64,000 bases of DNA from positions 434,001-498,000 of the forward strand of contig NZ_VRMG01000005.1 of NCBI RefSeq assembly GCF_008040105.1, read 5' to 3'. The stretch is from Lacisediminihabitans profunda. Lineage in GTDB: Bacteria; Actinomycetota; Actinomycetes; Actinomycetales; Microbacteriaceae. Under the pieces are notes generated by a model. It made no database searches, was not told where the DNA came from, and was given only the letters and a program-made list of their open reading frames with translations. Shown piece by piece: positions 18,423 through 51,223 of this stretch. Position numbers and translations under genes: made by a program. Every line of letters starts with the position of its first letter. The stretch's first letter is position 1.

Positions 18423-18478
18423 TCAACGAACAATGGATGCCGACGGCATCGCGACGAGACGCAAGGAGCGGATCCACC

Positions 18479-20142: not shown

Positions 20143-20162
20143 GCCGAGAGACAAAGAGAGAA

Positions 20163-23307
<3,145 letters not shown>

Positions 23308-32115: not shown

Positions 32116-32142
32116 CCGCGACACGATATCGATCGGAGTCTC

Positions 32143-35239: not shown

Positions 35240-36733
35240 TCAGGAGAGAACGTCGCGCAAGAGTTCGTCGTTCACCTTTCGACGGCTCACCGACACGACG
35301 AACCCGACGGCGAGCAGAGCGAAGGGCAGGAGAACGAGCACCCAACCGACCGGGCTGAGGGCCCAGGCCGTGACCGAGGGGTCGACGCCCGCCGCCGGCG
35401 TGCCGGCCAGCAGCCCGAACCGCGACATGAGCAGGTACTCACCGAGCAGCAGGCCGATCGTCGCGAGCACGGGAGCGATTATCGCCTCGAAGACGTTCTC
35501 GGTTCCCTTGTTGCGACGGAAGTAGACGATCACCGCGACGCAGACGAGGATCTCGATCAGCACGATCGCGACGACCGCGAGCCCGCTGAACCAGAAGAAC
35601 AGGGTGAGCACGGGGTCGAGCTGGAAGATCGCGAAGATCGCGATCACGAGGCCGGTGATCACTGAGGTGATGAGCGAGGCGTTGCTCGGGGCGCCCCGGC
35701 GGTTGACCCGGCTGAGCGAGACCGGGAGCACTCCTCCGCGGGCCATCGCGAAGATGTACCGGCTCGCCGCGTTCTGGAAGGCCAGCAGCCCGGCGAACAG
35801 GCTCGACAGCACGAGGATGCTCATGACCGTCGCCATCCACGGCCCGATGTACTGGGTGGCGAGGGAGAAGAGCACGGCCGCCGGGTCGACGAGCTTGTTG
35901 GACAGCTCGGCGGTCTTGTCGACAACCGTGGAGGCGCCCATGCCGGTGACCATCGCGAAGGAGGTGAGGGCGAAGAGCACTGTGATGACGCCGACGGCGA
36001 GGTAGGTGGCGCGGGGGACGACCTTCTTCGGGTTCTTCGACTCCTCCCCGTAGATCGCGGTGGCCTCGAATCCGATGAACGAGGCGAAGGCGAACGCGAA
36101 GGCGATGCCGGCAGACCCGGCGAGGCCGCCGACGAGGATCTTGTCCGGCGAGAAGGATGCCGCGAAGTTGAGGCCCTCCGGACCGCCGTTGACCAGGATG
36201 GCGATGGAGGTGACGACCAGGGCGGTGAGTTCCAGAAGCATGAGCCCGCCGAGCACCTTGGCCCCGACATCCACGCTCAGCAGTGAGAGCGCGGTGACGA
36301 CGATCCAGGCGATGAGCGTCCAGGCCCACCAGGGGAGCACGCCGACCTGGGCGGCGATGAGCCCACCGAAGAAGCCGTAGATGGCGAGCTGCACGGCCAC
36401 GTAGGCGAGGATCGAGACGAAGGCCGACGCGATTCCGGCGTGCCGGCCGAGGCCCCGGCCGATGTAGGCGAAGAACGCCCCCGCGTTGGTGACGCGCTGG
36501 CTCATCGCGGCGTAGCCGACGCTGAAGAGCAGGAGCGTGATGCCCACGACGAGGTAGGCGCCCGGGGCGGCGGCGCCGTTGCCGAGAACGATGGCGACCG
36601 GCACGGCCCCCGTCATGCCGACGAGCGGTGCGGCGGCGGCGACGACGAAGAAGACGATTCCGATCACGCCGAGGCGCCCAGTGTGCAGTTTGGTCCTGGT
36701 GTCTTCGTCCGACGACTGTTGGGTAAGCGCCAT
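35240..36733 (-). CDS. APC family amino acid/amine permease
   Basis: About 497 residues from ATG 36733, with AGGAG nine bases upstream; an upstream in-frame extension crosses the operator region and is rejected. Twelve or more hydrophobic helices; N-terminal LGVIGIVFFVVAAAAPLVGMTGAVP and GFEATAIYGEESKNPKKVVPRATY are typical of APC amino acid and polyamine transporters. It is the first gene on the left of the amine/aromatic cluster and probably imports its substrate. An operator-like site overlaps its promoter. Confidence 0.9.
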   Translation of the reverse strand: MALTQQSSDEDTRTKLHTGRLGVIGIVFFVVAAAAPLVGMTGAVPVAIVLGNGAAAPGAYLVVGITLLLFSVGYAAMSQRVTNAGAFFAYIGRGLGRHAGIASAFVSILAYVAVQLAIYGFFGGLIAAQVGVLPWWAWTLIAWIVVTALSLLSVDVGAKVLGGLMLLELTALVVTSIAILVNGGPEGLNFAASFSPDKILVGGLAGSAGIAFAFAFASFIGFEATAIYGEESKNPKKVVPRATYLAVGVITVLFALTSFAMVTGMGASTVVDKTAELSNKLVDPAAVLFSLATQYIGPWMATVMSILVLSSLFAGLLAFQNAASRYIFAMARGGVLPVSLSRVNRRGAPSNASLITSVITGLVIAIFAIFQLDPVLTLFFWFSGLAVVAIVLIEILVCVAVIVYFRRNKGTENVFEAIIAPVLATIGLLLGEYLLMSRFGLLAGTPAAGVDPSVTAWALSPVGWVLVLLPFALLAVGFVVSVSRRKVNDELLRDVLS

Positions 36734-36770
36734 GGAAATTACTCCTCGTTGAGTAGTGATGCCTAGATCG

Positions 36771-36782
36771 TGCGTATCCGAA
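36771..36782 (-). promoter_or_regulatory. Operator-like site A of the amine/aromatic cluster
   Basis: On the reverse strand this reads TTCGGATACGCA, 10 of 12 matches to the palindrome TTCGGATACGAA at site B. It lies 38 bases upstream of the APC permease start. Confidence 0.5.
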
Positions 36783-36862
36783 CGACTTAGACACACACTG
36801 TCGAAGGTTGGCGGGCGCGTCAAGGGCTGGAGCAAGAAAGATGTGCGGATCGAGACCTGTCA

Positions 36863-36874
36863 TTCGGATACGAA
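36863..36874 (+). promoter_or_regulatory. Operator-like site B (best match to palindrome)
   Basis: TTCGGATACGAA, symmetric as TTCG-nATn-CGAA. It is followed by the -10 candidate TACACT (36892-36897), which would start transcription about two bases before the ATG at 36906, a leaderless message. A repressor here would cover the -35 region. Confidence 0.6.
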
Positions 36875-36905
36875 CAATGACGGAAGTGGGCTACACTCTG
36901 GCGCT

Positions 36906-37715
36906 ATGACTGCTCTCCATGGCTTCCTGCCGCCGCTGACGCCTCGCGGAACCAGCGCTCTCGTTCCCAACCTGCCCTGGTACTACTCGGGCACCCTGCT
37001 CACGGTCGAATACCTCACCGACCCGGCCAACGTGCGTGCGATCCTCCCGGACGACATCGAGCTGGCCCCGGATCGGCCAGGGGCGGTGGCCATCATCTGG
37101 GCCGACTGGCAGTCCTGCAGCGAGGGCGGTCTCGAACTGCTCGACCCCATCCGCTCGCAGTATCTCGAGGCCTTCGTGGTCGTGCGGTGCTCCTACCAGG
37201 GCGAGGTCTACAGCCGGTGTGTGGCGATCTGGGTGACGAAGGACTTCGCCATGGGCCGAGGATGGTTCCAGGGCTACCCGAAGAAGCTGGGCTCGGTGCA
37301 TGTCACGCGCATCTTCTCTCGCGGCAAGGCGAGCCCGAGGCTCGAGGCCGGAGCCCGGCTGGGAGCGTCGCTCGCGGCGTACGACCACCGGCTCGCCTCC
37401 GCCCTCGTCACCCTGCGGGAGCCGTCGGAGGGCAACGGCTTCGTCAACGGGCACCGGATGCTGCACAACCGCTTCATGCCGTCGATCAGCCAGGGCCAGG
37501 GCCTCTCGATGGACCAGCTCATCGCGATGGGCGGCGTCGACGCCGACCTCGGCCAGGCCTGGCGCGGCGACGCCGAACTCTCGCTCGCCGACTCGCCCTG
37601 GGACGAGCTGCACTCGATCCTGCCCGTCGACGAGATCCTCGGCGGCTACTACCGCGAGGTGGGGGTCACCTTCGCCGGTGGCGACCTCATCGCCGACCGC
37701 TCCCGCACCGTCTGA
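36906..37715 (+). CDS. Acetoacetate decarboxylase-like family protein
   Basis: A 269-residue protein from ATG 36906, probably leaderless. YYSGTLLTVEYLTDPANVRAILPDDIE, the central EVYSRCVAIWVTKDFAMGRGW and QGYPKKLGSVHVTR match the acetoacetate decarboxylase superfamily, including the Lys region that forms the Schiff base in true decarboxylases. In this cluster it may decarboxylate or tautomerise an oxo-acid intermediate of ring-cleavage products. That role is inference. Confidence 0.8.
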   Translation: MTALHGFLPPLTPRGTSALVPNLPWYYSGTLLTVEYLTDPANVRAILPDDIELAPDRPGAVAIIWADWQSCSEGGLELLDPIRSQYLEAFVVVRCSYQGEVYSRCVAIWVTKDFAMGRGWFQGYPKKLGSVHVTRIFSRGKASPRLEAGARLGASLAAYDHRLASALVTLREPSEGNGFVNGHRMLHNRFMPSISQGQGLSMDQLIAMGGVDADLGQAWRGDAELSLADSPWDELHSILPVDEILGGYYREVGVTFAGGDLIADRSRTV

Positions 37716-37786
37716 CGCGCGGGGCCGCATCCGCCCCCGTCCCTCTCCTGGCTCCCCGCTCCCCGCTCCTCGCTCCTCGCTCCCTC

Positions 37787-37872
37787 TTCCGAAATCCATG
37801 CATTCCTTCGGCGAGGGCGGCGTGTCGGGGTGCGACACGCCGCCCTGCCCCAGAATTGCATGGATTTCGGAA
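37787..37872. repeat. Cruciform-forming inverted-repeat element, copy 2
   Basis: Outer arms 37787-37802 (ttccgaaatccatgca) and 37857-37872 are perfectly complementary (16 bp). Nested inside is a second perfect 13-bp hairpin (37815-37827 with 37833-37845). Pyrimidine-rich DNA to the left and purine-rich to the right repeat the layout of copy 1 at 601-683. It sits between two convergent genes and could also act as a terminator. Confidence 0.8.
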
Positions 37873-37911
37873 GCGGCAAGGGGAGAAGCGGCGCAGGGGA
37901 GGGAGTCGGGG

Positions 37912-39261
37912 CTAGTAGTCCTCGAGGTACTCGTCGATCTCCCACTGGGTCACGTCACGCGTGGCCGGGTCGGGCACCTCGCTCTCGTAGCGCTCGATCT
38001 CGTCGCGCTTGAGCACGCCGAACACGTCGATCACGGGGGCGCCGATGATGTCGCGTAGCGCCGAGTTCGCGTCCAGGGCGTCGAGCGCCGCCTCGAGCGA
38101 GGTGGGCAGCACCTCCGCCGCCTCGTTCTGGTAGGCCCAGCCCTCGGCCGCCTCCGGCACGGCGAGCTGGCGACGGATGCCGTCCAGGCCGGCGGCGAGC
38201 ACCGCGGCGATCATGAGATACGGGTTGGCCGCACCGTCGCCGACGCGCACCTCCAGGCGCGTGCCGGCTCCACGCTCCGGCGGCACGCGCAGCATCGCGC
38301 TGCGGTTGTCGTGACCCCAGTTGGCGCGGTAGGGCGCGAGAGTGTCCGGCCCGAGCCGCTTGAAGGCGTTGATGGTGGGGTTGGTGAGCGCGGTGAGCGC
38401 GGCGGCATTCTCGAGGATGCCGGCGATCAGCAGGTTGGCCGTGTCCGAGAGCCCGCCGTCGGCGGTGGCCATGAGGTTGCGTCCGTTCGCGTCGACGACC
38501 GAGAAGTGCAGGTGGAAGCCGCTGCCGCCCTCGTCGCTCCACGGCTTGCCGAGGAAGGTGGCGAGCTTGCCCGACCGGGCGACGATGTCCTTCACCGCGG
38601 TCTTGAATAGGAACGTGCGGTCGGCCGCCCGGAGGGCCTCGCCGTGCCAGAGGTTGATCTCGTACTGCGACGGACTGAACTCGTGGTTGCCGGCGAAGAC
38701 GCCGATGTCCATCTGGTCGAGCATCCGGAGCAGGTGCAGGAAGGTGCCGTCCGGGTCCACCCACGCGCCGGTCGTGTAGACGCGGCCGGTGCGGGTGAGG
38801 GCACGCTGCCAGCCCCGCTCGCCGCGCTCGGCGATGTAGAACTCGAGCTCCGGCCCGATGATCGGGGTGAGACCGAGCTCCGCGTACTGGGCGATCACCC
38901 GGCGGAGGGCCGAGCGCGGGGCGATCTCGCTCGCCGTCTCGTCGGGGTTGAACGCGTCGGCGACGACGAGCGCCACTCCGGGCTCCCACGGCATCATGGT
39001 GAGGGTGGAGGCGTCGAGGCGCGTGACGAGGTCGGGAAGGCCGCTCGACATGATGTCGTTGCCGTCGAGCACGCCGCCGCGGGTGGTCGTGACCCAGACC
39101 CCCTGGCAGAAGGCCGGACCGTTGGCCGCCGATCGTTCGAGCTGGCTCACGAGCAGGTCCTTCGACCTCGTGATGCCCAGGACATCGGGGTAGATGAGCC
39201 GGAGCACATCGATGCCCCTGGCCTCGAGTTGCGAACGAAGAGCAGCTACATCGGTACTCAT
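37912..39261 (-). CDS. Glutamine synthetase-like gamma-glutamyl-amine ligase (PuuA/GlnA family)
   Basis: A 449-residue protein from ATG 39261, with GGAGGT just upstream; the in-frame ATG at 39291 lies inside a palindrome and is less likely. Metal and ATP residues of the GS fold are visible (GPELEFYIAER, NHEFSPSQYEINL, FHLHFSVVD, RSAMLRVPPE, RLEVRVGDGAANPYL). The length, lack of the GlnA-I adenylylation loop and the neighbours (APC transporter, amidotransferases) favour a catabolic gamma-glutamyl ligase for an amine over housekeeping GlnA. Confidence 0.85.
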   Translation of the reverse strand: MSTDVAALRSQLEARGIDVLRLIYPDVLGITRSKDLLVSQLERSAANGPAFCQGVWVTTTRGGVLDGNDIMSSGLPDLVTRLDASTLTMMPWEPGVALVVADAFNPDETASEIAPRSALRRVIAQYAELGLTPIIGPELEFYIAERGERGWQRALTRTGRVYTTGAWVDPDGTFLHLLRMLDQMDIGVFAGNHEFSPSQYEINLWHGEALRAADRTFLFKTAVKDIVARSGKLATFLGKPWSDEGGSGFHLHFSVVDANGRNLMATADGGLSDTANLLIAGILENAAALTALTNPTINAFKRLGPDTLAPYRANWGHDNRSAMLRVPPERGAGTRLEVRVGDGAANPYLMIAAVLAAGLDGIRRQLAVPEAAEGWAYQNEAAEVLPTSLEAALDALDANSALRDIIGAPVIDVFGVLKRDEIERYESEVPDPATRDVTQWEIDEYLEDY

Positions 39262-39277
39262 GTGACCTCCGGCGATA

Positions 39278-39299
39278 AATCGTTCGGCCATGAACGATT
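39278..39299. promoter_or_regulatory. Perfect 8-bp inverted repeat upstream of the GS-like gene
   Basis: AATCGTTC, six-base spacer, GAACGATT. On the reverse strand TAGTAT at 39312-39307 is a plausible -10, which puts the palindrome at the transcription start. It shares TTCGG with sites A-D but has different spacing, so it may bind another regulator. Confidence 0.55.
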
Positions 39300-39368
39300 A
39301 GTGCGATACTAGGGCACATCGCCGGGAATCTGTCAGCCCGGCGCACTCCGGCGGCGATGAGGTGAGCG

Positions 39369-40094
39369 GTGAAGGCCCTGTTCGTGCAGCATGACCATGT
39401 GAGTCCGACCGGGCCCGTCGCAGGTCGCCTGCGGGAACGCGGCTTCGAGGTAGACGAGATCACCGTCGTCGACGAGGCCAGCTTCGGCAGCCCGAACGTG
39501 ACCTTCGATTTTCCCGATCTCGGCGAGTACGACCTGCTCGTGCCGATGGGGGCGCCCTGGGGCGCCTGGGATGACGCCTGCATCGGTCGCTGGCTGCTGC
39601 CCGAGATCGAGTGGATCGGCGACGCCCTCGCCCGCGACCTCCCCGTGCTCGGCATCTGCTTCGGCGGCCAGCTCATGGCGCGGGCCCTCGGCGGCACCGT
39701 CGGGCGGGCCGGCAAGCCGGAGATCGGCTGGACCGCCATCCACACCGACGATGCGTCAGTTGTGTCGAGCGGCCCCTGGTTCCAGTTCCACTACGACCGG
39801 TGGACGCTGCCGGCCGGCGCGACCGAGATCGCGCGAAACTCCGTGGCCTCCCAGGCCTTCGTGGTCGGTCGGAGCCTCGCCGTGCAGTTCCACCCGGAGC
39901 TCACCGCGTCGACCCTCGACGGCTGGCTGGCCCAGGGCGGGGCAGAGCAGGTGATCGCCGACGGCCAGGATCCGGTCGCCCTGCTCGAGCACACGCGGGC
40001 CGAGGAGCGCGCGGCGACGGCGCGTTCGCACGCCATGGTCGACGCCTTCGTCGAGCGGATCGCGCGGCTCCAGCCGCCCGGTTGGGGCACCTAG
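39369..40094 (+). CDS. Class I glutamine amidotransferase (GATase1) family protein
   Basis: A 241-residue protein from GTG 39369. The triad is intact: Cys in LGICFGGQLMA, His and Glu in VQFHPELTAS. Stand-alone GATase1 proteins of this type pair with GS-like ligases in aniline degradation (TdnT/AtdA2 with TdnQ/AtdA1), where they are thought to hydrolyse or control gamma-glutamyl amides. It is divergent from the GS-like gene. Its end overlaps the decarboxylase end tail-to-tail by 4 bases. Confidence 0.85.
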   Translation: MKALFVQHDHVSPTGPVAGRLRERGFEVDEITVVDEASFGSPNVTFDFPDLGEYDLLVPMGAPWGAWDDACIGRWLLPEIEWIGDALARDLPVLGICFGGQLMARALGGTVGRAGKPEIGWTAIHTDDASVVSSGPWFQFHYDRWTLPAGATEIARNSVASQAFVVGRSLAVQFHPELTASTLDGWLAQGGAEQVIADGQDPVALLEHTRAEERAATARSHAMVDAFVERIARLQPPGWGT

Positions 40095-41461
40095 CGGAGG
40101 GTCTCGAGCACGTCGATCACCCGCTGCGCCTCGGTCGCCGGGTTCACGAACGCGAGCCGCAGGACGCTGCGTCCGCGCCAGGTGGTGGGCACGCAGAGGA
40201 TCACCCCGGCGTGCGCCGCGGCGTTCGACCACTCCAGGTACTGCGCCTGGGTCCAGCCGACCCGCTCGAAGAGCAGCACGGACAGTTCCGGCTCCCGAAC
40301 CAGGCGCAGGTGGTCGGATGACCGGATGGCGTCAGCGACGACCCTGGACGTCGTGAGGGAGGCCTCCACGGCATTCCGGTACCGGTCGGTACCGTGCGTG
40401 GCAAGGCTGAACCAGAACGGCAGGCCGCGCGCCCGGCGGGAGAGGTGAAGGGCGAGTTCGCTGGGGTTCCAGACCTCGCGGTCGACGTGGTCGAGGTAGC
40501 TCGCGTGCTGGGCGTGGGTGGCGCGGGCGAGCTGCGGATCGCGGTAGACCAGCGCGCAGCAGTCGTAGGGGGCGAAGAGCCACTTGTGCGGGTCGACGAT
40601 GAAGCTGTCCGCCCGCTCGATGCCCGCGAAGAGCTCGCGAACGCTCGGTGCCGCGAGGCCGGCCCCGCCGTACGCGCCGTCGACGTGCATCCAGACCCCG
40701 AACTCCTCGCACACGTCGGCGATGTCGTCGAGGTCGTCCACGACGCCCTCGTTGGTCGTGCCGGCAGAGGCGACGACCGCGAAGACGTTGGGCGAGCGTT
40801 CGAGCACGGCGCGGAGGGCCGCACCGGTGAGGTGGCCGCGGTCGTCGACTGGGACGTCGACGATGTCCACGTCGAGGGCGCGGGCCGCCGACTGGATGGA
40901 GGAGTGCGCGTTCGAGCTGCTGGCGAGCTGCCAGCCCTCCGCCGGCCGGCCACCGCGCCTCGTGCGTGCGGTCTCCCGCGCGGTCATGAGGGCGGAGAGA
41001 TTGCCGGAGGTGCCGCCGGAGACGAAGCAGCCGCCGGCGGTCGACGGCCAGCCGAGCAGGCCGACGATCCAGGCGAGTGCCTCGTTCTCGGCGTAGATCG
41101 CACCAGCGCCGGCCTCCCAGAGACCGCCGAAGATGTTCGCGGCGCTCGTCACGAGGTCGAAGGCGATGGCGGCGCGGGTGGGCGCCGCCGCGATGTAGGC
41201 GAGGTTGAGCGGGTCGTCCTGGGAGCGGGTCGCCGGTTCGAGCACGGTGTCGAAAACCCGCAGCGCCGCCGCCCCGCCGATGCCCGACGGCGTGATCGTG
41301 GGTCCGGCATCCGCGGCGATGGCCGACGCCGGCCGCGCGGTGGAGAGCGGGTCGGTGTGGCGCACCACACGCCTCGCGGACCAGTCGACGGCGAGTTCCA
41401 CGACCGCCGACTCGTCGCCCCAGATCGGATGCGGCTCGGCGTGCAGGTGCGGTTTCGTCAT
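40091..41461 (-). CDS. PLP-dependent group II decarboxylase (aromatic L-amino acid type)
   Basis: A 456-residue protein from ATG 41461, 10 bases after the P450 stop on the same strand. The Schiff-base Lys lies in SFIVDPHKWLFAPYDCCAL; GGCFVSGGTSGNLSALMTARE and WMHVDGAYGGAG are the cofactor-binding segments. This matches aromatic amino acid or diaminobutyrate decarboxylases. It would form an amine such as tyramine or phenethylamine that the neighbouring gamma-glutamylation genes could use; the substrate is inference. Confidence 0.88.
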   Translation of the reverse strand: MTKPHLHAEPHPIWGDESAVVELAVDWSARRVVRHTDPLSTARPASAIAADAGPTITPSGIGGAAALRVFDTVLEPATRSQDDPLNLAYIAAAPTRAAIAFDLVTSAANIFGGLWEAGAGAIYAENEALAWIVGLLGWPSTAGGCFVSGGTSGNLSALMTARETARTRRGGRPAEGWQLASSSNAHSSIQSAARALDVDIVDVPVDDRGHLTGAALRAVLERSPNVFAVVASAGTTNEGVVDDLDDIADVCEEFGVWMHVDGAYGGAGLAAPSVRELFAGIERADSFIVDPHKWLFAPYDCCALVYRDPQLARATHAQHASYLDHVDREVWNPSELALHLSRRARGLPFWFSLATHGTDRYRNAVEASLTTSRVVADAIRSSDHLRLVREPELSVLLFERVGWTQAQYLEWSNAAAHAGVILCVPTTWRGRSVLRLAFVNPATEAQRVIDVLETLR

Positions 41462-41471
41462 GCCGGGGAGC

Positions 41472-42725
41472 CTACTTGGCCAACTCGACCCGAACCGGGA
41501 AGCGCTTGATGCCGTTGACGAAGTTGCTGCGCAGCCGGGAGAGCTCGCCGATCTGCTCCATGCTGTCCACCCGACCTAGCAGGTCTTCGTACATGATCCG
41601 GATCTCCAGGCGCGCCAGCGCGTTGCCCAGGCACATGTGCGGGCCGCCCCGTCCGAACGACATGTGCTCGTTCGGGTTGCGGGTCACATCCATGCGGTAC
41701 GGGTCGTCGAAGACCTCCGGATCGCGGTTGCCGGCGGCGAACCAGGTGACGACCTTGTCGCCCTCCTTGATCGCCTGGCCGTTGATCTCGGTGTCGCGGG
41801 TGGCCGTGCGGCGGAAGTGGTAGACCGGGCTCGCCAGGCGCAGGAACTCCTCGACCGCCCAGGGGATGAGCTCCGGACGCTCCTGCAGCAGCGCCATCTG
41901 GTCCGGGTTCTGCATGAGGTAGTTCATCGAGTGGGTGATGGTGTGTCGTGTCGTCTCGTTGCCGGCCACGACCAGCAGCAGGAAGTAGCTGTTGAAGTCG
42001 CGCTGCGAGAGCGGGATGCCGTCGGACGGCGTCTCGTTGACGAGCCGGGACACGAGGTCGGTCCCGCTCTTGCCCCGGCGCTGCCTGGCCAGTTCGTTGC
42101 CGTAGTCGAACACCTCCTGGGCGGCGGGGGAGCGGAAGGGAAGCAGCCGGTACTTCTCGCTCTCGGCCGAGGTGGAGAGCACGTCGGCGTGCTCGGGGTC
42201 GGTGTTGCCGACCATGCGGTTGCCCCAGTCGATGAGCTTGTGGATGTCGGTGTCCGGCACGTCGAGCATGCGAGCGAGCACGCGGATGGGGAAGTCGGCC
42301 GCGACGTCGGCGACGAAGTCGAACTCGCCCTTGGCGAAGGCGGTGTCGAGGGTCGTGGCGGTGAGTCCGCGCAGGAAGGTCTCGTAGCCGGCGACGGCCC
42401 GGGGGGTGAACTCGCCCTGCATCAGCTTGCGCAGCGCGCGATGGCGTACGCCGTCGGTCTCGAGCATCGACTTGCGGGCCTCGATCTGGTCCGCGTCGAG
42501 TTCCTCGAGGTTCACGGTCCCGCGTTCGCTCGAGAAGGTCTCGGTGTCCCGCAGCACCCCGACGATGTCGTGGTAGCGCGTGAGGGACCAGAACCCGTGG
42601 TTGGGCGCCTCCTCCTCGTCCCAGTGCACGGGAGCCTTCGCGCGCAGCTCGTCGAAGACGGCCCAGGGCTGGTCGTGCTCGAAGAGGTCGAGGTCGGCCA
42701 GGGTGACATTCGCCAGTGAAGTCAA
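41472..42725 (-). CDS. Cytochrome P450
   Basis: A 417-residue protein from TTG 42725 with a strong TGGAGG site five bases upstream. Heme-binding loop MSFGRGGPHMCLGNALA with Cys at about 365; I-helix LLVVAGNETTRHT; K-helix EEFLR. No membrane anchor, as usual in bacteria. The GGPH form of the heme loop is seen in CYP125/126-like families. The 3Fe-4S ferredoxin and reductase encoded at 47.4-48.9 kb probably supply its electrons. Likely an aromatic or side-chain hydroxylase in this cluster. Confidence 0.93.
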   Translation of the reverse strand: MTSLANVTLADLDLFEHDQPWAVFDELRAKAPVHWDEEEAPNHGFWSLTRYHDIVGVLRDTETFSSERGTVNLEELDADQIEARKSMLETDGVRHRALRKLMQGEFTPRAVAGYETFLRGLTATTLDTAFAKGEFDFVADVAADFPIRVLARMLDVPDTDIHKLIDWGNRMVGNTDPEHADVLSTSAESEKYRLLPFRSPAAQEVFDYGNELARQRRGKSGTDLVSRLVNETPSDGIPLSQRDFNSYFLLLVVAGNETTRHTITHSMNYLMQNPDQMALLQERPELIPWAVEEFLRLASPVYHFRRTATRDTEINGQAIKEGDKVVTWFAAGNRDPEVFDDPYRMDVTRNPNEHMSFGRGGPHMCLGNALARLEIRIMYEDLLGRVDSMEQIGELSRLRSNFVNGIKRFPVRVELAK

Positions 42726-42745
42726 CTCATCCTCCAGGGATATTG

Positions 42746-42757
42746 TTTGGATGCGAA
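42746..42757 (+). promoter_or_regulatory. Operator-like site C, between P450 and marR
   Basis: TTTGGATGCGAA, 10 of 12 matches to site B. It is 20 bases upstream of the P450 start and on the reverse strand follows a possible -10, TAGGTT (42765-42760). Binding here would block the P450-decarboxylase operon. Confidence 0.55.
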
Positions 42758-42864
42758 CAACCTACACCCGGGGCACTGGCGGCGCGAGAGTTCGCCGCCG
42801 TCTCGAACCCGGTGACGGCCCGTCGTTTAGAGTGAACCCACCCGCGCTTCCCGAAGGAGAATCC

Positions 42865-43365
42865 ATGACCGGTCCGCACACGCTGGTCGAGACGGAGCGG
42901 CAGGTCGAGGCGCGCCTCGGCAAGCTCCCGCTGGACTACTCGGCGATGGCCGTCGCCTCCAACCTGTTCCGGGCGGCGAACGCGGTGCGCAACCACCTCG
43001 AACGCACGGTGCTCTCCGAGAACAACCTCTCCTGGACCGCGTTCGTCGTGCTCTGGGTCACCTGGATCTGGGAGCCGATCGAGACCCGCCAGATCGCGCT
43101 CGAGGGCGGCTTCTCCAAGGCGACGCTCACCGGGGTGCTGTCCACGCTCGAGGGGCGCGGCTGGCTCGCGCGCGAGCGGAGCCAGGCGGATGGCCGGCTC
43201 GTCCTCGTGCGCATGACCGACGCCGGGCGCGAGCTCATGACGCAGCTCTTTCCGGACTTCAACCTCCAGGAGCAGCACGTGTCGAGCCCGATCGATCCGG
43301 CCAAGCGCGACGAGTTCGCCGAGATGCTGCGCCTCGTGACGGTTCACGTGGAGAAGCGGGACTAG
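42865..43365 (+). CDS. MarR family transcriptional regulator
   Basis: A 166-residue protein from ATG 42865 with GAAGGAGA upstream. Winged helix features: RQIALEGGFSKATLTGVLSTLEGRGWLARERSQADGR and VLVRMTDAGRELM. It lies in the middle of the amine/aromatic cluster, divergent from the P450 operon. It is the best candidate to bind the TTCGGATRCGAA-like sites; related MarR proteins (HpaR, for example) respond to aromatic acids. Confidence 0.92.
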   Translation: MTGPHTLVETERQVEARLGKLPLDYSAMAVASNLFRAANAVRNHLERTVLSENNLSWTAFVVLWVTWIWEPIETRQIALEGGFSKATLTGVLSTLEGRGWLARERSQADGRLVLVRMTDAGRELMTQLFPDFNLQEQHVSSPIDPAKRDEFAEMLRLVTVHVEKRD

Positions 43366-43399
43366 ACTCCGGGCACGGGCGCCCGCGGGGGCGCCGCGA

Positions 43400-44092
43400 T
43401 CAGGGCCGCGACCGCTCGACCAGCTCGGCGAAGATCGCCGCCTGGGCCGGGTCCGTCGCCGCGGTGTCCTCCGGATGCCACTGCACGCCGACGGCCCAGC
43501 CGGCGGCGTCGATCACCGCGGCCTCCGGGATGCCATCGGTCGACCGCGCGACGACCTCGATTCCCTCGCCGAGCCGGTCGAGCGCCTGGTGGTGGTAGCA
43601 GGAGGCGCGCACGACCGGGGAACTCAGGCCGAACAGCTGCTCGTCGCGTTCGAAGCGCACGTCGTGCACGTGGTTGCGGTGGTGCCGGGGAAGGTCCTGC
43701 ACCAGAGTCCCGCCGCGAGCGACGTTGACGACGTGCAGACCGCGGCAGACGGCGAGCAGCGGCAGGCCGGCCTGCAGGGCGAAGCGAGCGCTCTCCAGGT
43801 CCGCGGCATCCTGCACCTCGTCCACGTCGTAGACGTTCTCGGAGGCGACCGCCTGGCCGTAGCTGGCCGGAGAGAGGTCGCCGCCGCCGGGAAGGAGGAT
43901 GCCGCCGAAGCCGTCGAGGCGGCTCGCCCAGTCGCTGCCGGCGACCGGCAGGAGGGTGAGGGGCTCGCCTCCGGCGGCCCACACCGCCTCGAGCAGGGCG
44001 CGCGCGGTGACGACGGCGCCGTGGCGCAGGGCGGACGTGCTGGAGGCGAATCGGCCGAGGACGGCGATTCTGGGACGCTGCGAGGTGACCAC
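43400..44092 (-). CDS. Gamma-glutamyl-gamma-aminobutyrate hydrolase-like peptidase C26 (PuuD-like)
   Basis: A 230-residue protein from GTG 44092. Nucleophile Cys in LLAVCRGLHVVNV and His-Glu in GVQWHPEDTA; LPGGGDLSPASYG is also characteristic. PuuD hydrolyses gamma-glutamyl amides in the Puu pathway. With the PuuA-like ligase and APC carrier it suggests that amines are processed as gamma-glutamyl adducts. It converges on marR. Confidence 0.88.
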   Translation of the reverse strand: MVTSQRPRIAVLGRFASSTSALRHGAVVTARALLEAVWAAGGEPLTLLPVAGSDWASRLDGFGGILLPGGGDLSPASYGQAVASENVYDVDEVQDAADLESARFALQAGLPLLAVCRGLHVVNVARGGTLVQDLPRHHRNHVHDVRFERDEQLFGLSSPVVRASCYHHQALDRLGEGIEVVARSTDGIPEAAVIDAAGWAVGVQWHPEDTAATDPAQAAIFAELVERSRP

Positions 44093-44121
44093 GATGTCTT
44101 TCCCAGGTTCGGAACGGGGAG

Positions 44122-44150
44122 TTGTAGAGCCAATGGCTATTCTGTAGGGT
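44122..44150 (+). promoter_or_regulatory. Promoter of the hpaE-hpaD-like operon
   Basis: TTGTAG (44122-44127) and TAGGGT (44145-44150) with a 17-base spacer. The expected start, about 44156, abuts operator-like site D. Confidence 0.5.
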
Positions 44151-44156
44151 AACTCA

Positions 44157-44168
44157 TTAGCATCCGAA
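44157..44168 (-). promoter_or_regulatory. Operator-like site D
   Basis: On the reverse strand TTCGGATGCTAA, 10 of 12 matches to site B. It lies at the predicted transcription start of the dehydrogenase-dioxygenase operon. Confidence 0.55.
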
Positions 44169-44205
44169 TGATTTAACGGCGAGCCATTCGAGACGGGGAG
44201 TGCGC

Positions 44206-45669
44206 ATGACCAGCGTTGACGTGGCAGGAACGGCTGTCGACACGAGACACTACATCGGCGGCCAACGCGTCGCCTCGGTGTCGACGTTCACCAATACCTC
44301 CCCGATCGACGGATCGTTTCTCGGCGAGATCGCCCGCGGCGGCGCCGTCGAGGTGGACCTCGCGGTCGAGGCGGCTCGCAATGCCTTCCCGGTGTGGTCC
44401 GGCATGCCGCCGGCGGAACGCGCCGCGATCCTCAACCGCATCGCCGACCTCGTCGAGGAGAGCGTGGATTCTCTCGCGGCCGTCGAGACCATGGACAACG
44501 GGGCGCTCCTGCGCAGCCACCTGCGCGGAGTGATGCCGCGGGTCGCCCTCAACTTCCGCTTCTTCGCCGACTGGCTGGTCAACCACCTCGACCACCCGGA
44601 CTTCGAGACGCGCGGTCACGTCAACCACGTCTCCTGGGACCCGTCCGGCGTCGCCGGCATCATCACACCGTGGAACGCGCCGCTCATGCTCGCCACCTGG
44701 CGGATCGCCCCGGCCCTGGCCGCGGGGGACACCGTCGTGCTCAAGCCGGCCGAGTGGACGCCGCTCACCGCATCCCTCCTCGCCGACATCACCAAGCGGG
44801 CCGGGCTCCCGGATGGCGCCTTCAACGTCGTGCAGGGGATCGGGCGCGAGGCCGGGGCCGCGCTCGTCGCACACCCGGGACTCAGTCGCATCTCATTCAC
44901 CGGCTCGGTGCCCACGGCCAAGTCGATCGCTCGGGCCGCCGCCGACAACCTCACCCCCTGCAGCTTCGAACTGGGCGGCAAGAGCCCGTTCATCGTGCTC
45001 GCCGACGCCGACCTCGAACTCGCGGCGGAGCTCGCCATCGAGCAGTACGACAATGCCGGCCAGGTCTGCCTCTCCGGCACGCGCATCCTCGTGCACGAGA
45101 GCATCGAGGCGGAGTTCACCGAGGCGTTCCGTCGCAAGGCGGCGGCCATGCGTCAGGGCGACCCGCGGGATCCGGCGACCGACATCGGCCCGCAGGTTCA
45201 CGAGGCGCACTTCGCGCGGGTCAAGGGCTTCGTCGACCGCGCCAGGGCCGAGGGAGCGACCATCGCCATGGGTGGGGGTCCGAACACCGAGCTCGGTGGC
45301 CTCTACTTCTCGCCGACACTCGTCTACGACCCCACGCCGGGAAGCGAGATCGTCACGCAGGAGGTCTTCGGCCCCGTGCTCACCATGCAGACCTTCTCGA
45401 CCGACGACGAGGTGCTCGCTCTCGCGAACGGCACCGAGTTCGGCCTCGCGGCGGTCGTCGTCTCGGGCGACCGGCAGCACGCCGAGGCGATCACGTCCCG
45501 GCTCGTCGCCGGCACGATCTGGGTCAACTGCTTCTTCGTGCGCGACCTCCGGGCGCCGTTCGGCGGTTCGAAGAAGTCCGGTGTCGGTCGCGAGGGCGGC
45601 ACCTGGTCTTTCGATTTCTACGCGGACGTGAAGAACACGGTCGTCGCTCCCAACGGATGGAAGGAATAG
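44206..45669 (+). CDS. Aldehyde dehydrogenase, HpaE-like (5-carboxymethyl-2-hydroxymuconate semialdehyde dehydrogenase)
   Basis: About 487 residues from ATG 44206 with GGGGAG at 44195-44200 (GTG 44200 alternative). Catalytic Glu in ELGGKSPFIVLADA; catalytic Cys in NAGQVCLSGTRI. The C-terminal FVRDLRAPFGGSKKSGVGREGG closely follows E. coli HpaE as I recall it. Such an enzyme oxidises the ring-cleavage semialdehyde of homoprotocatechuate. It is the first gene of a five-gene operon. Confidence 0.88.
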   Translation: MTSVDVAGTAVDTRHYIGGQRVASVSTFTNTSPIDGSFLGEIARGGAVEVDLAVEAARNAFPVWSGMPPAERAAILNRIADLVEESVDSLAAVETMDNGALLRSHLRGVMPRVALNFRFFADWLVNHLDHPDFETRGHVNHVSWDPSGVAGIITPWNAPLMLATWRIAPALAAGDTVVLKPAEWTPLTASLLADITKRAGLPDGAFNVVQGIGREAGAALVAHPGLSRISFTGSVPTAKSIARAAADNLTPCSFELGGKSPFIVLADADLELAAELAIEQYDNAGQVCLSGTRILVHESIEAEFTEAFRRKAAAMRQGDPRDPATDIGPQVHEAHFARVKGFVDRARAEGATIAMGGGPNTELGGLYFSPTLVYDPTPGSEIVTQEVFGPVLTMQTFSTDDEVLALANGTEFGLAAVVVSGDRQHAEAITSRLVAGTIWVNCFFVRDLRAPFGGSKKSGVGREGGTWSFDFYADVKNTVVAPNGWKE

Positions 45670-45672
45670 CTC

Positions 45673-46584
45673 ATGGGTGAAGTAGTCGGTGTGGGCCTGA
45701 TCGCTCACGTACCAACCATCATGCTGCCGAAAGAGACACGGATGGAGCTCAACGAGGGCAAGGACTCGACGCTCGTCTCCGGGCTGGAGAAGCTGCGCAA
45801 GGACGTCTTCGAGTCCGACGACTACGACACGGTGATCGTGCTCGACAGCCACTGGGCGACCACCGTCGAATTCGTGGTGACCTCGCACGAGCGGCGCAGC
45901 GGAAAGTTCACCTCGGAGGAGCTCCCCCGGGGAATGCACGGTGTGCCGTTCGACTACCTCGGCGACCCGGAACTGGCCATGCTGATCGCCGACCAGGCGG
46001 AGAAGAACGGCACCTGGATCACGCCGATCGACGACCCGGACCTGCCGGTGATGTACGCCACCATCAACCTCTGGAAGTACCTCGGCGAGGGCCTTCCCGA
46101 CAAGAGGTGGATCAGCGTGAGCCTCTGCCAGACGGCCACCGACGAGGACTTCCTCCGTGCCGGCCGCGCGATCGGTGAGGCGATCGCCAAGAGCGATCGC
46201 CGGGTGATCCTGCTCGCCTCCGGAGCCCTGTCCCACACCTTCTTCAAGCTGCGCGAGCTGCGCAAGCACGAGATGGCCGACCCGAGCCACATCTTCTCCG
46301 AGGCCGCCCGGGTCGCGGACTACGAGCGTCTCGACTGGTTCGCCGCCGGCGACCACGCGAAGGTTCTCGAGACCATGCCGGCCTTCCACAAGGTGCGGCC
46401 GGAGGGCATGTTCGGGCACTGGCTGCTCGCCGCCGGCGCGATCGGCGAGGAGAACTGCACCGCCCCCGGCGTGCTGTACAGCGAATACGAGAACTCGATC
46501 GGCACCGGCCAGGTGCACGTCTGGTTCCCTCGACCGGTTGGCGGATTCCCCAAAGCCAAAGATCTGACGCTGTCCCGTGACTGA
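45673..46584 (+). CDS. LigB-type extradiol dioxygenase, HpaD-like (3,4-dihydroxyphenylacetate 2,3-dioxygenase)
   Basis: A 303-residue protein from ATG 45673, three bases after the dehydrogenase stop. The class III extradiol fold is recognisable from LIAHVPTIMLP, VIVLDSHWATTVEF, LPVMYATINLWKYL and ILLASGALSHTFF, with His ligands at the expected places, and SIGTGQVHVWFP near the end. Order and similarity to HpaD suggest cleavage of homoprotocatechuate or a close catechol using Fe(II). Confidence 0.88.
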   Translation: MGEVVGVGLIAHVPTIMLPKETRMELNEGKDSTLVSGLEKLRKDVFESDDYDTVIVLDSHWATTVEFVVTSHERRSGKFTSEELPRGMHGVPFDYLGDPELAMLIADQAEKNGTWITPIDDPDLPVMYATINLWKYLGEGLPDKRWISVSLCQTATDEDFLRAGRAIGEAIAKSDRRVILLASGALSHTFFKLRELRKHEMADPSHIFSEAARVADYERLDWFAAGDHAKVLETMPAFHKVRPEGMFGHWLLAAGAIGEENCTAPGVLYSEYENSIGTGQVHVWFPRPVGGFPKAKDLTLSRD

Positions 46585-47452
46585 GTATCGTCGCATCCTG
46601 CTGGACGGCGTCGCCACGCAGACCGTGCGCCACGGCGACGCCCTCGTCGCCGCCGACGGCCGGGAGGTGGGGCTCGACGCGGCCATCCACCTGCCGCCGA
46701 CCGAGCCGTCCAAGATCATCGCGGTGCATCTCAATTACGCTAGCCGCACCGACGAGTTCATGACCAAGCTGCCCTCGGCACCCACCTACTTCCACAAGCC
46801 GATCACGGCGCTCAACAGCCACCGAGGTTCAGTGGTGCGCCCGCTCGGCTGCAAGTGGCTCAACTTCGAGGGCGAGATCGTGATCGTGATCGGTCGCACC
46901 TGCCGCAACGTGTCGCCGCAGGATGCCGGCGACTACATCGCCGGGTACACGATCGGCAACGACTTCGGCTTGCACGACTTTCGGGACACGGATGCCGGAT
47001 CGATGCTTCGGGTGAAGGGCAGCGACACGCTCGCCCCCGTCGGACCGGGGCTCGTCACCGACTGGGACTTCCGCGGCAAGCAGATCCGCACGATCGTGAA
47101 CGGGGTGGTGAAACAGGACGACAACACCGCCAACATGGAGTGGGACATGAACTACCTCGTCGCCGACATCGCCCGCACCATCACGCTGAGCCCCGGCGAC
47201 ATCCTGTTCAGCGGCACGCCGGCGTTCTCGCGGCCCGTCGAACCCGGGGACGTCGTGGAGGTGGAGGTGGAGGGCCTCGGCCGCCTGAGCAATACCATCG
47301 TCGAGGGTCCCACCCCGATCCGCACCGACGTCGGTGCCCAGCCGACCGAGAGCGAAGAGGTCGTCTCGACCGCGCTCGGCGGGGACTGGGAGTTCCGCGG
47401 CATCCGCACGCCATCGAAAGACCTGTACCCATCCACCGTGGAGGAGAAGTAG
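46577..47452 (+). CDS. Fumarylacetoacetate hydrolase family protein, HpaG-like
   Basis: A 291-residue protein from GTG 46577, overlapping the dioxygenase gene by 8 bases. Metal-binding FEGEIVIVIGRTCRNV and YTIGNDFGLHDFR, then DILFSGTPAFSRPVEPGDVVEVEVEGLG are FAH-family motifs. In the hpa pathway such enzymes decarboxylate and isomerise the ring-cleavage acid. Confidence 0.9.
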   Translation: MTEYRRILLDGVATQTVRHGDALVAADGREVGLDAAIHLPPTEPSKIIAVHLNYASRTDEFMTKLPSAPTYFHKPITALNSHRGSVVRPLGCKWLNFEGEIVIVIGRTCRNVSPQDAGDYIAGYTIGNDFGLHDFRDTDAGSMLRVKGSDTLAPVGPGLVTDWDFRGKQIRTIVNGVVKQDDNTANMEWDMNYLVADIARTITLSPGDILFSGTPAFSRPVEPGDVVEVEVEGLGRLSNTIVEGPTPIRTDVGAQPTESEEVVSTALGGDWEFRGIRTPSKDLYPSTVEEK

Positions 47453-47644
47453 TTGATAAAGATCCAGGTCGATATGGCCCTCTGCCAGCACTACGGGCAG
47501 TGCGTCTTCGAGGCGCCGAACGTGTTCCACCTCAACGATGACGACAAGCTCGAATACCTCGCGGAGGCCGACGACTCCGAGCGCGACAACGTCGAAGCCG
47601 CCGTGGACGTCTGCCCGATGCAGGCCATCCGGATCGTGGAATAG
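47453..47644 (+). CDS. 3Fe-4S-type ferredoxin
   Basis: A 63-residue protein from TTG 47453 with GGAGGAGAAG just upstream. Three cluster cysteines: 11 and 17 (CQHYGQC) and 54 (CPMQAI), the pattern of P450-partner 3Fe-4S ferredoxins. It overlaps the reductase gene by one base. Probable electron donor to the P450 encoded at 41.5-42.7 kb. Confidence 0.93.
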   Translation: MIKIQVDMALCQHYGQCVFEAPNVFHLNDDDKLEYLAEADDSERDNVEAAVDVCPMQAIRIVE

Positions 47645-48855
47645 TGTCTGCGCCCGTCGTCATCGTCGGTGCCGCGATGGGGGGACTCCGCACCGCGGAG
47701 GCCCTCCGCCGGGCCGGCTACGCGGGCGCGCTCACGGTGATCGGCGACGAGGTGCACGCCCCGTACAACCGGCCGCCGCTCTCGAAGGACGTGCTCTCCA
47801 CCGTCGTGAGCCACGAGGCCGTGGCCTTTCCGGCCCGCGCCGCCACCGCCGACGTGGATTGGATGCTCGGAACCCGGGTGACCTCCGTCGATCTCGACGC
47901 GCACACCATCGTCACGGACGACGGAACCGTGCTCCCGTGGCGCGCGCTCGTGATCGCGACCGGGTTGCGCCCCCGACGGCTGCAACTCCCCCCGATCGCC
48001 GGACGACACTCGGTGCGTACCCTCGACGACGCCATGGCCCTGCGCGGGGAACTCGTGCCGGGCGCGCGCGTCGTGCTCGCCGGCTCCGGTTTCATCGGCT
48101 GCGAGGTGGCCGCGACCGCACGCAAGCTCGGCTGCGAGGTGACGGTGGTCTCGCCGAGCGTCGAACCCATAGTGCGCCCGCTCGGGCGCCTGCTCGCCAC
48201 GGAGCTTCGGCGGCGCCACGAGGCGCACGGCGTGAGCTTCCGGCTCGGCAGGACCATCGCCCAGCTCGACGGCGGCAACCGGCTCGACGAGGTCGTGCTC
48301 GACGACGGGGAGATCCTGCCGGCGGATGTGCTCGTCGAGGCGATCGGCTCCGACTGCAACACGGGATGGCTCGCCTCCACCGATCTCGACCTGCGCGACG
48401 GGGTGCTCGCCGACCCGGCGATGCGCGCCATCTCGATCGACGGGCGGGTGCGCGACGACGTGTACGTGGTCGGCGACATCGCGCGCTTCCCCAACCTGAT
48501 GTTCGACGACGTCCCGCGCCGGGTCGAGCACTGGAATATCCCCACCGACACCGGCAAGCGGGCCGGGTCGGTGCTCGGCGCCTGGCTCGCCGACGACGGC
48601 ACGTACGCCGAGGTCGCCGCCCAGCGGTTCACCCCGATGCCGGCGTTCTGGTCCAACCAGTTCGAGGTGAGCCTGCAGGCCTACGGCCTTCCGGGCCTCG
48701 CCGACCCCGACGGCATCCGTATCCTCGCCGGCGACATCGCGGCGGAGGTGATCGTCGGCTATTTCCGCGGCGAGCGACTGGTGGCCGTGGTCGGCCTCGG
48801 TCTCAAGGCGGCCCTGCTGCCCTACCGGGAGCAGATCGCGGCGGGCGTCGGCTGA
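47644..48855 (+). CDS. FAD-dependent ferredoxin reductase
   Basis: A 403-residue protein from GTG 47644. FAD motif VIVGAAMGGLRTAEALRRAG, NAD motif VVLAGSGFIGCEVAATARKLG, and VYVVGDIARFPN near the FAD-binding C-terminal region; the layout is that of rhodocoxin/putidaredoxin reductases. It completes the P450 electron-transfer chain with the adjacent ferredoxin. Confidence 0.93.
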   Translation: MSAPVVIVGAAMGGLRTAEALRRAGYAGALTVIGDEVHAPYNRPPLSKDVLSTVVSHEAVAFPARAATADVDWMLGTRVTSVDLDAHTIVTDDGTVLPWRALVIATGLRPRRLQLPPIAGRHSVRTLDDAMALRGELVPGARVVLAGSGFIGCEVAATARKLGCEVTVVSPSVEPIVRPLGRLLATELRRRHEAHGVSFRLGRTIAQLDGGNRLDEVVLDDGEILPADVLVEAIGSDCNTGWLASTDLDLRDGVLADPAMRAISIDGRVRDDVYVVGDIARFPNLMFDDVPRRVEHWNIPTDTGKRAGSVLGAWLADDGTYAEVAAQRFTPMPAFWSNQFEVSLQAYGLPGLADPDGIRILAGDIAAEVIVGYFRGERLVAVVGLGLKAALLPYREQIAAGVG

Positions 48856-48893
48856 CCGCGCGCGCAGGCCGACGCTGGCCCTAGGCTGGCGGC

Positions 48894-49736
48894 ATGACCG
48901 AATCCGGCGTCTCCCGCGTGGGATCCCACGGCGATTCGAGCGTCGGCGTCGCGGTGGCCCAGTTCGCCCCGGGGAACGACCCGGCGGCGAACCTCGCCAG
49001 CATCCGAGACCTCGCGACCCTGGCGGTGGAGCGCGGCGCCTCGCTTGTCGTCTTCCCCGAGTACTCGTCCTACTTCACGCCGGAGCTGGGCGCGAACTCG
49101 CTCGCCGCGGCCGAACCCCTCGACGGCCCGTTCGTGGCCGGGCTCGAGGCGATCGCGAAGGTGCTCGGAGTGCACCTCGTCGCCGGGATGCTCGAGACGA
49201 CCGCGGCGGGCGACCGGTTCTCGAACACCGTCGTGGCGGTGGGCCCGAACGGGGCGATCGTGGCGGCCTATCGCAAGATCCACCTCTACGACGCGTTCGG
49301 GCAGCGGGAGAGCGAGTGGGTGCGCCCGGGTGACATCGAGGCGCCAGAGACGTTCCCCCTCGCCGGATTCACCGTCGGCATCCAGACCTGTTACGACCTC
49401 CGGTTTCCCGAGGTCACCCGACGACTGGTCGACGCGGGCGCCGACCTCGTCGTCGTGCCGAGCGAGTGGGTGCGCGGTCCGCTCAAGGAACAACACTGGC
49501 GCACCCTCGTCACCGCCCGGGCGCTGGAGAACACCGTTTTCGTGGCGGCCGCGGACCAGGCCCCGCCCATCGGCGCGGGCAACAGCATGATCGTCGACCC
49601 GATGGGAGTCGAGCTCGCGACCCTCGGCGAGGAGACCTCCGTGGCGGTGGCGTGGCTCGCCCGCTCCCGGGTCGTCTCGGTGCGCGAGATCAATCCGGCG
49701 CTCCGGATGCGGCGATTCGGTGTCCATCCGCTGTAA
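48894..49736 (+). CDS. Carbon-nitrogen hydrolase (nitrilase superfamily)
   Basis: A 280-residue protein from ATG 48894. Catalytic Glu in VVFPEYSSYFTP, Lys in YRKIHLYDAFGQ, Cys in GIQTCYDLRFPE. It is of the amidase branch (omega-amidase/carbamoyl hydrolase-like). It is 38 bases after the reductase gene on the same strand. It could hydrolyse an amide made in the gamma-glutamyl route, though a housekeeping repair role is possible. Confidence 0.9.
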   Translation: MTESGVSRVGSHGDSSVGVAVAQFAPGNDPAANLASIRDLATLAVERGASLVVFPEYSSYFTPELGANSLAAAEPLDGPFVAGLEAIAKVLGVHLVAGMLETTAAGDRFSNTVVAVGPNGAIVAAYRKIHLYDAFGQRESEWVRPGDIEAPETFPLAGFTVGIQTCYDLRFPEVTRRLVDAGADLVVVPSEWVRGPLKEQHWRTLVTARALENTVFVAAADQAPPIGAGNSMIVDPMGVELATLGEETSVAVAWLARSRVVSVREINPALRMRRFGVHPL

Positions 49737-50261: not shown

Positions 50262-50313
50262 GGCACGCCGACGCCCGGTGGGACAACGTCGAGAACACGG
50301 GGAGGGTGCTCGC

Positions 50314-51202: not shown

Positions 51203-51223
51203 TCGCATGAAGAGAGTCATCGC

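Follow-up and report, generated by a model that had tools for sequence, protein, structure and literature searches.

A conserved gene module in Lacisediminihabitans profunda that may carry a gamma-glutamyl tag through ring hydroxylation and meta-cleavage of a phenethylamine-type amine

The gene cluster at positions 35240-49736 of a 64,000-nucleotide stretch of Lacisediminihabitans profunda DNA (contig NZ_VRMG01000005.1, positions 434,001 to 498,000 of a 4.0-Mb draft genome; the whole stretch is called the window here) resembles several described catabolic systems in part. The Hpa/Hpc routes (hpaGEDFHI of Escherichia coli; 4-hydroxyphenylacetate use in Acinetobacter baumannii, PMC12718150) share with it a LigB-type dioxygenase, an aldehyde dehydrogenase (ALDH), a FAH-superfamily protein, a MarR-type regulator and the same chemical order; the cluster differs in adding a cytochrome P450 and a glutamine synthetase (GS)-like ligase, in having an acetoacetate decarboxylase (ADC)-family protein instead of HpaH/HpaI, and in missing all Hpa equivalog cut-offs. 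The Puu system of E. coli (puuP-A-D-R-C-B-E) has in common with it a GS-like ligase, an APC-family carrier and PuuD, to which relatives of the cluster add a PuuC-like ALDH (about 50% identical to E. coli PuuC) and the gamma-aminobutyrate (GABA) transaminase GabT. In contrast to Puu, PuuB was detected in 0/85 module stretches (80 loci, four plasmid loci and the window) by a search with no positive control in the set, the aldehyde would arise from ring opening, and the PuuA- and PuuD-like proteins are only about 29% identical to those of E. coli. The gamma-glutamylation of aniline and 1-naphthylamine by AtdA1/NpaA1 (PMC11335346) shares GS-like amine tagging before ring oxidation, a stand-alone glutamine amidotransferase (GATase) and the loss of Glu327; those systems use a Rieske dioxygenase on the tagged amine, whereas the module has a P450 and a side-chain amine, and the two are likened here by description. 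No Rieske dioxygenase was present among the Pfam-scanned proteins of the cluster. The mycobacterial mor/pip P450 systems (morpholine, piperidine) and the Gulosibacter molinate genes (PMC9477822) are actinobacterial too and combine a P450, ferredoxin and reductase with a nearby glutamine synthetase; they act on cyclic secondary amines, have no ring-cleaving dioxygenase in that account and are compared by gene content only. Finally, the ADC-superfamily aldolases MppR, Sbi_00515 and Saccharolobus Sso1221/Sso1222 share the superfamily and its lysine with the cluster's ADC protein, and PMC7820114 had already proposed ADC-type proteins (Sso1221/Sso1222) as the aldolase in archaeal phenol meta-cleavage. 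Unlike these, the ADC gene of the cluster lies within a meta-cleavage operon and appears to stand in for both the hydratase and the aldolase genes.

The GS-P450-ADC-ALDH-LigB-FAH set is a real conserved module, more than a chance association. A LigB scan of genome contigs returned 172 coding places; locus counts use the best 80, a sample that consequently leans to close relatives, and 40 of these have full 10-kb flanks. The six core genes occur together within 10 kb in 31/40 full-flank loci from other genomes, and in 46/80 of all loci, many of these with incomplete flanks. The genes found within 10 kb in the full-flank loci were: ALDH (40), GS-like (39), MarR (39), FAH (36), ADC (36), P450 (35), APC (29), ferredoxin reductase (26), GATase (22), pyridoxal-phosphate (PLP) decarboxylase (17), PuuD (16) and nitrilase (11). 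The carriers are scattered soil and water bacteria: Actinomycetes, Acidimicrobiia- and Nitriliruptoria-type metagenome-assembled genomes (MAGs), Rhodospirillales (L063-L066) and one Novosphingobium plasmid, with partial sets in two gammaproteobacterial MAGs; the module is also present on two Streptomyces plasmids (S. canus, S. lunaelactis) and an Embleya plasmid. The LigB proteins closest to that of the window come from Frigoribacterium and Salinibacterium, with 81-92% identity for the nearest loci. LigB was found at E<=0.001 in 6/198 genomes of the order sample, own genome included, with none among the 13 other genomes of the same family listed there, and the LigB subfamily at E<=1e-70 in 36/396 genomes of the Actinomycetota sample, own included; the module is thus patchy. 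Two MAG contigs titled Bifidobacterium breve (L044, L053) carry it beside freshwater-type sequences, and their names are probably wrong.

An earlier note on this DNA had joined P450 oxidation and meta-cleavage in one catabolic unit, and this co-occurrence, kept across classes and phyla, supports it; the note had also held that no described pathway has this gene set, and none was found in the literature searched, mostly open-access journals, with preprints outside the search. As far as that literature reaches, the module is undescribed, yet it is built of known enzyme families.

We consider it reasonably probable that the cluster serves to break down an amine of the phenethylamine type, tyramine being the likeliest, by a tagged route into Puu intermediates. 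Tyrosine would be converted to tyramine by the PLP decarboxylase, or the amine imported by the APC carrier; the GS-like ligase, judging from its family and residues, would join the gamma-carboxyl of glutamate to the amine, and the P450 with its ferredoxin and reductase could then hydroxylate the ring to give gamma-glutamyl-dopamine. By analogy with Hpa, LigB would open the catechol ring beside the side chain, the semialdehyde would be oxidised by the HpaE-like ALDH, and the HpaG-like FAH protein would isomerise and decarboxylate the product. The end products of the Hpa route are pyruvate and an aldehyde in which the starting side chain has been lengthened by two carbons; with the side chain CH2-CH2-NH-gamma-Glu, this aldehyde would be 4-(gamma-glutamylamino)butanal, a PuuC substrate. 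The gene swap and the lysine described below suggest that the ADC-family enzyme hydrates the 2-oxo-3-enoate and cleaves it by a retro-aldol reaction to pyruvate and this aldehyde. Neighbouring genes in relatives point to a PuuC-like or aminobutyraldehyde dehydrogenase, followed by PuuD, GATase or nitrilase, as the enzymes releasing GABA and glutamate, and to a GABA transaminase completing the route. The tag would keep the free amine from cyclising and pass the product straight to Puu-type enzymes. The chances seem to us slightly better than even that this is an undescribed aerobic pathway in which the gamma-glutamyl tag is kept through ring hydroxylation and meta-cleavage, the ring being turned into gamma-glutamyl-aminobutyraldehyde by way of an ADC-fold one-protein hydratase-aldolase.

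Residue counts in the GS-like proteins (n = 64) bear on the tagging step; sequences under 85% coverage were excluded from them, and those under 75% from the ADC, PuuD and GATase counts. At the position of Glu327 of E. coli GlnA these proteins have L in 59, F in 3, I in 1 and T in 1, and at Tyr179 V in 58, A in 3, Y in 2 and R in 1, and the metal, ATP and glutamate residues (E129, E131, E212, E220, H269, R321, R339, E357, R359) are retained in 64/64. A plain glutamine synthetase was set aside because Glu327 is replaced in all 64, and the pattern is consistent with an amine ligase no longer able to bind ammonium. Together with the conserved co-occurrence across phyla, the loss of Glu327 supports the gamma-glutamylation of an organic amine suggested previously. 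Two further criteria, Asp50 and Glu357, were not clean diagnostics: Glu357, named as lost in PMC11335346 (GoaS, aromatic-amine ligases), is retained in all 64 sequences and in PuuA, unlike that criterion, and Asp50 of GlnA aligns with Asp in 36/64, the protein of the window included, in a poorly aligned stretch, which counts against the loss of the ammonium site.

The ADC-family protein has MppR and Sbi_00515 as its nearest relatives and was aligned to the structures 6eej/4zbo and to MppR (4jm3). A lysine stands at the position of MppR Lys156 in 59/59 sequences; we take MppR Lys156 and Sbi_00515 Lys122 to be the active-site lysines in this numbering. The gene is present in 58/80 loci, and HpaH/HpaI in none of those 58. 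Both HpaH and HpaI were found in 2/85 module stretches, the gammaproteobacterial loci L083 (positions 687 and 1) and L093 (3741 and 2974), neither of which has ADC, and the HpaI family was absent within 10 kb of LigB in 24/24 genomes (by coordinates). Given the gene order of L093 (GS, HpaI, HpaH, FAH, ALDH, P450, LigB), the pathway seems to run there by the classical hydratase and aldolase. This reciprocal swap and the conserved lysine suggest that the ADC-family enzyme is a candidate one-protein hydratase-aldolase that would replace HpaH and HpaI and probably carries out the last step on the ring fragment. L083 and L093 are related, so the exchange may be a single evolutionary event; the full-flank groups L068 and L081/L089 have neither ADC nor HpaH/HpaI.

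The link to Puu was examined through further neighbours. The chemistry of the tagged route was set down before these were annotated, and the second ALDHs and GABA transaminases were found afterwards; PuuD and GATase were already known, so they are not tests of the idea. An aminobutyraldehyde dehydrogenase scored above the curated cut-off of 615 in L034 (626.9) and L036 (623.1) and near it in L047, a locus that is cut short (586). PuuC was the best model for a second ALDH in L055, L067, S. canus and S. lunaelactis, and this gene adjoins PuuD in L055 and on the two plasmids. Over the 80 loci, a PuuC-like ALDH (at least 54% identical to that of L055) occurs in 10, the aminobutyraldehyde type in 4 and a GabT-like protein in 5, with at least one of them in 18; the second ALDH of L048, with no family match and no match in the locus search, was left uncounted. 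At E<=1e-150, 13/24 genomes have a PuuC-like protein, one each, and 9 of the 13 lie within 15 kb of LigB, compared to about 0.1 expected by our own arithmetic from genome sizes (seven inside fetched loci; for two, L020 and L021, the distance comes from coordinates on an inferred contig); since one of these clusters supplied the query, the search favours cluster copies. A GABA-transaminase-like gene is directly beside LigB in 8/29 further loci (about 1.5-kb flanks), all eight from one family (8/11 of its fetched loci). The genome of L. profunda itself has two GABA transaminases above the cut-off, elsewhere than the cluster. The HpaE-like ALDH may perform both oxidations; the HpaE-type ALDH of A. 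baumannii also accepts succinic semialdehyde, according to PMC12718150.

Three candidate enzymes could remove the tag. The positions of E. coli PuuD C114, H222 and E224, which we take to be the catalytic residues, are kept in 33/33 PuuD-like sequences, and at 46% identity or more 11/12 PuuD places in 24 genomes fall at the cluster. In the GATase (n = 33) the Cys motif is GICFGGQ in 32 and GVCFGGQ in 1, and QFHPE is present in 33/33. Nitrilase occurs in 12/80 loci and PuuD in 29/80, never in the same locus, a pattern suggesting that either can take the place of the other; the window carries both, and the 12 nitrilase-bearing loci are close relatives.

Several observations weigh against the tagged route to GABA. 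The PuuC-like proteins are always under the PuuC cut-off (554-580 of 850), and for the second ALDH of L055 phenylacetaldehyde dehydrogenase is a close second model (523 bits). At E<=1e-150, 11/24 genomes have no PuuC-like protein; the same holds for 3/3 Salinibacterium-type genomes. A second ALDH is missing nearby in the window and in most of its close relatives: in 10 of the 15 loci L015-L029 the fetched flank holds a nitrilase but not PuuC, and the best of the 22 ALDH-type matches in the window's own genome is 53% identical to that of L055 and lies on another contig. The GABA-transaminase-like class III aminotransferases score 367-385 bits against the TIGR00700 cut-off of 507, with PRK08117 as their best model, and GabT was absent from the 40 full-flank loci. 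There is one FAH protein only in the cluster, and A. baumannii requires two for efficient decarboxylation (PMC12718150). The P450 is missing in 5/40 full-flank loci (L060, L068, L079, L082, L085), a recognised ferredoxin or reductase in 14/40, and P450, ferredoxin and reductase in the fetched stretch of S. lunaelactis pSLUN1. The closest solved chains to the P450 are CYP125MRCA (387 bits) and CYP125 (about 242 bits), a type known for aliphatic hydroxylation. The PLP decarboxylase, found in only 17/40, has as solved relatives DOPA and tryptophan decarboxylases and also diaminobutyrate decarboxylases, and could act on some other amino acid than tyrosine. Because of these P450 and ferredoxin gaps, the CYP125 likeness and the ambiguity of the decarboxylase, the identity of the amine, the reaction of the P450 and the point of tag removal are inferred.

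The strongest alternative, to which we give a minor share of belief, is a homoprotocatechuate route, in which the amine would be lost ahead of ring cleavage and homoprotocatechuate would be the substrate of LigB; in one version, hydroxylation by the P450 at the carbon adjacent to the amide nitrogen releases an arylacetaldehyde, which an ALDH oxidises. HpaD, HpaE and HpaG are the best models for three of the proteins, the second ALDH of L055 has the phenylacetaldehyde dehydrogenase score given above, the P450 resembles aliphatic hydroxylases, and Kutzneria L060, without P450, has instead a gene for a flavin adenine dinucleotide (FAD) amine-oxidase-like protein. However, LigB shares only about 28-31% identity with annotated HpaD, from which it departs at 28 family-fixed positions. 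H12, H60, E244 and H188 were invariant in an alignment of 7 HpaD sequences (Sphingobium TomTYG64 excluded) and 31 module sequences, a chosen subset (27/80 loci, the window and three plasmids); we presume the first three to be the iron ligands, two His and one Glu, and H188 the catalytic His. Over 219 residues, the FAH protein and E. coli HpaG share 38% identity. E. coli HpaF, HpaH, HpaI and HpaB were searched in the 85 module stretches; HpaF and HpaB were found in 0/85, with HpaF, HpaH and HpaI all recovered in control hpa loci. With HpaB, HpaF and PuuB not found and HpaH/HpaI in 2/85, nothing in the usual cluster would strip the amine before ring cleavage, and the presence beside LigB of aminobutyraldehyde dehydrogenase, PuuC/PuuD and GABA transaminase would be left unexplained. 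Homoprotocatechuate was set aside on this basis and is probably not an intermediate, and we retain the route as a rival only. The earlier outline of a catabolic unit with gamma-glutamylation, P450 and meta-cleavage holds; its homoprotocatechuate label probably does not, and it had missed the ADC gene and the link to PuuC, PuuD and GABA. The Ruegeria hpa operon (L101, 2104-9947) has a PLP decarboxylase and a class III aminotransferase, with no annotated hpaI in the stretch, and may be another decarboxylase-first variant.

The chemistry of the tagged route might also serve another amine (hordenine, synephrine, 3-methoxytyramine, hydroxybenzylamine or an aniline-type aromatic amine), with the P450 perhaps removing an O- or N-methyl group and not hydroxylating; we regard this as rather unlikely. 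The solved relatives leave the substrates of decarboxylase and P450 unfixed. On the S. canus plasmid (L096, 24181-27041), genes for an aminomethyltransferase, purU and a FolD-type methylene-tetrahydrofolate dehydrogenase lie a few kb downstream of PuuD and hint at a methylated substrate, and a Rieske protein whose C-terminal domain is of VanA type, one of a group of such proteins shared by three loci, adjoins the P450 (L041, 18504-20597; also L051 and L058). Such demethylation-like genes are, however, in only a few loci, and the four-carbon amino-aldehyde end (GABA) matches a two-carbon side chain, whereas aniline or benzylamine types would lead to glycine- or beta-alanine-type ends.

It is very improbable that a Puu-type amine pathway and an aromatic meta-cleavage pathway merely lie next to each other without being related: E. 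coli does keep the halves in separate puu and hpa operons, but the six core genes stay together in distant groups, forming a single co-directional run in the Rhodospirillum-type L066, and the five HpaD-type control loci (L099, L100, L101, L103, L104) have no GS, P450 or ADC. Hardly credible at all is a biosynthetic cluster, for which one could cite that MppR, the NCBIfam model on which the ADC protein scores highest, makes enduracididine, that LigB enzymes can make pigment or antibiotic precursors and that the pSLUN1 module lies near SARP regulators and a condensation-domain gene; the HpaR-like regulator, importer, PuuD and GABA transaminase indicate catabolism, the distribution is broad and no biosynthetic neighbours were found in the annotated loci.

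Gene calls in the window combined open frames, codon-position GC content and Pfam and NCBIfam scans (Table 1). All the genes named previously in the cluster were recovered, and two had been overlooked, the ADC-family (MppR-like) gene and the MarR regulator. ALDH, LigB, FAH, ferredoxin, reductase and nitrilase form a tight plus-strand series, and the P450 and PLP decarboxylase a minus-strand pair. Since the equivalog cut-offs for HpaE (518.9 of 638.35 bits), HpaD (HpaD_Fe, 131.1 bits, cut-off 315.95), HpaG-C (195.3 of 276.4), PuuA (249 of 650), PuuD (57 of 266) and MppR (168.9 bits, cut-off 380) were all missed, the cluster proteins are relatives of these families and not assigned members. The regulator reached 43 bits against the HpaR model, under the cut-off of 121, and the best NCBIfam model of the nitrilase-family protein was deaminated glutathione amidase (228 bits, cut-off 355). 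The spacing C-x5-C..CP leads us to infer a 3Fe-4S type for the ferredoxin.

Table 1 Genes of the cluster in the window, with scan scores and proposed roles.
Feature	Position	Strand	Evidence	Remarks
APC-family permease	35240..36733	-	PF00324 93.7 bits, PF13520 87.5 bits	Probable amine or amino acid importer; open frame to 36835, likely start near 36733
ADC-superfamily MppR/Sbi_00515-like protein	36906..37715	+	PF06314 188 bits	Open frame from 36756, likely start about 36906
GS-like ligase	37912..39291	-	PF00120 308.5 bits	Proposed gamma-glutamyl-arylalkylamine synthetase
Stand-alone class I glutamine amidotransferase (GATase1)	39369..40094	+	PF00117 48 bits	Candidate gamma-glutamyl-amide hydrolase
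Group II PLP decarboxylase, aromatic-amino-acid-decarboxylase type	40091..41461	-	PF00282 202 bits	
Cytochrome P450	41472..42725	-	PF00067 87 bits	Proposed ring hydroxylase on tagged amine
MarR/HpaR-like regulator	42862..43365	+	PF01047 41.8 bits	Open frame from 42580, likely start about 42862
PuuD-like peptidase C26	43400..44092	-	PF07722 132 bits	Proposed gamma-glutamyl-GABA hydrolase
ALDH, HpaE-like	44200..45669	+	Best NCBIfam HpaE 519 bits	Proposed ring-fission semialdehyde dehydrogenase
LigB-type extradiol dioxygenase, HpaD-like	45673..46584	+	PF02900 86 bits; best NCBIfam HpaD_Fe 131 bits	
FAH-superfamily protein, HpaG-like	46577..47452	+	PF01557 182 bits; HpaG-C 195 bits	Isomerase/decarboxylase-like
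Small single-cluster ferredoxin, 63 aa	47453..47644	+	PF13459/PF13370 about 44 bits	
Ferredoxin reductase	47644..48855	+	PF07992 179 bits and PF14759	
Nitrilase-superfamily amidase	48894..49736	+	PF00795 163 bits	Possible alternative gamma-glutamyl-GABA amidase

Just upstream of the cluster (27742-33288) lie genes of XdhC, CoxE(VWA), CoxG and AAA type, which are accessory genes for a molybdenum hydroxylase like xanthine or CO dehydrogenase. The nitrilase is followed immediately downstream (49788-52993) by three response regulators with a single domain each and by a PAS histidine kinase, homologues of which trail the cluster in a few Microbacteriaceae relatives only. The GC content of 10001-22000 is 0.58-0.62, compared with about 0.69 around it, a possible island not far from tRNA-Met (7224-7298).

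If true, the tagged route would link two textbook pathways, the meta-cleavage of homoprotocatechuate and the use of putrescine through gamma-glutamylation, in a single route for biogenic aromatic amines, and would give the recurrent P450-GS-ADC gene set a role and a reason for its recurrence. An ADC-fold family whose members take their name from acetoacetate decarboxylase would likewise gain a hydratase-aldolase function, and automatic annotations of the kind "catechol 1,2-dioxygenase" or "glutamine synthetase" would be put right.

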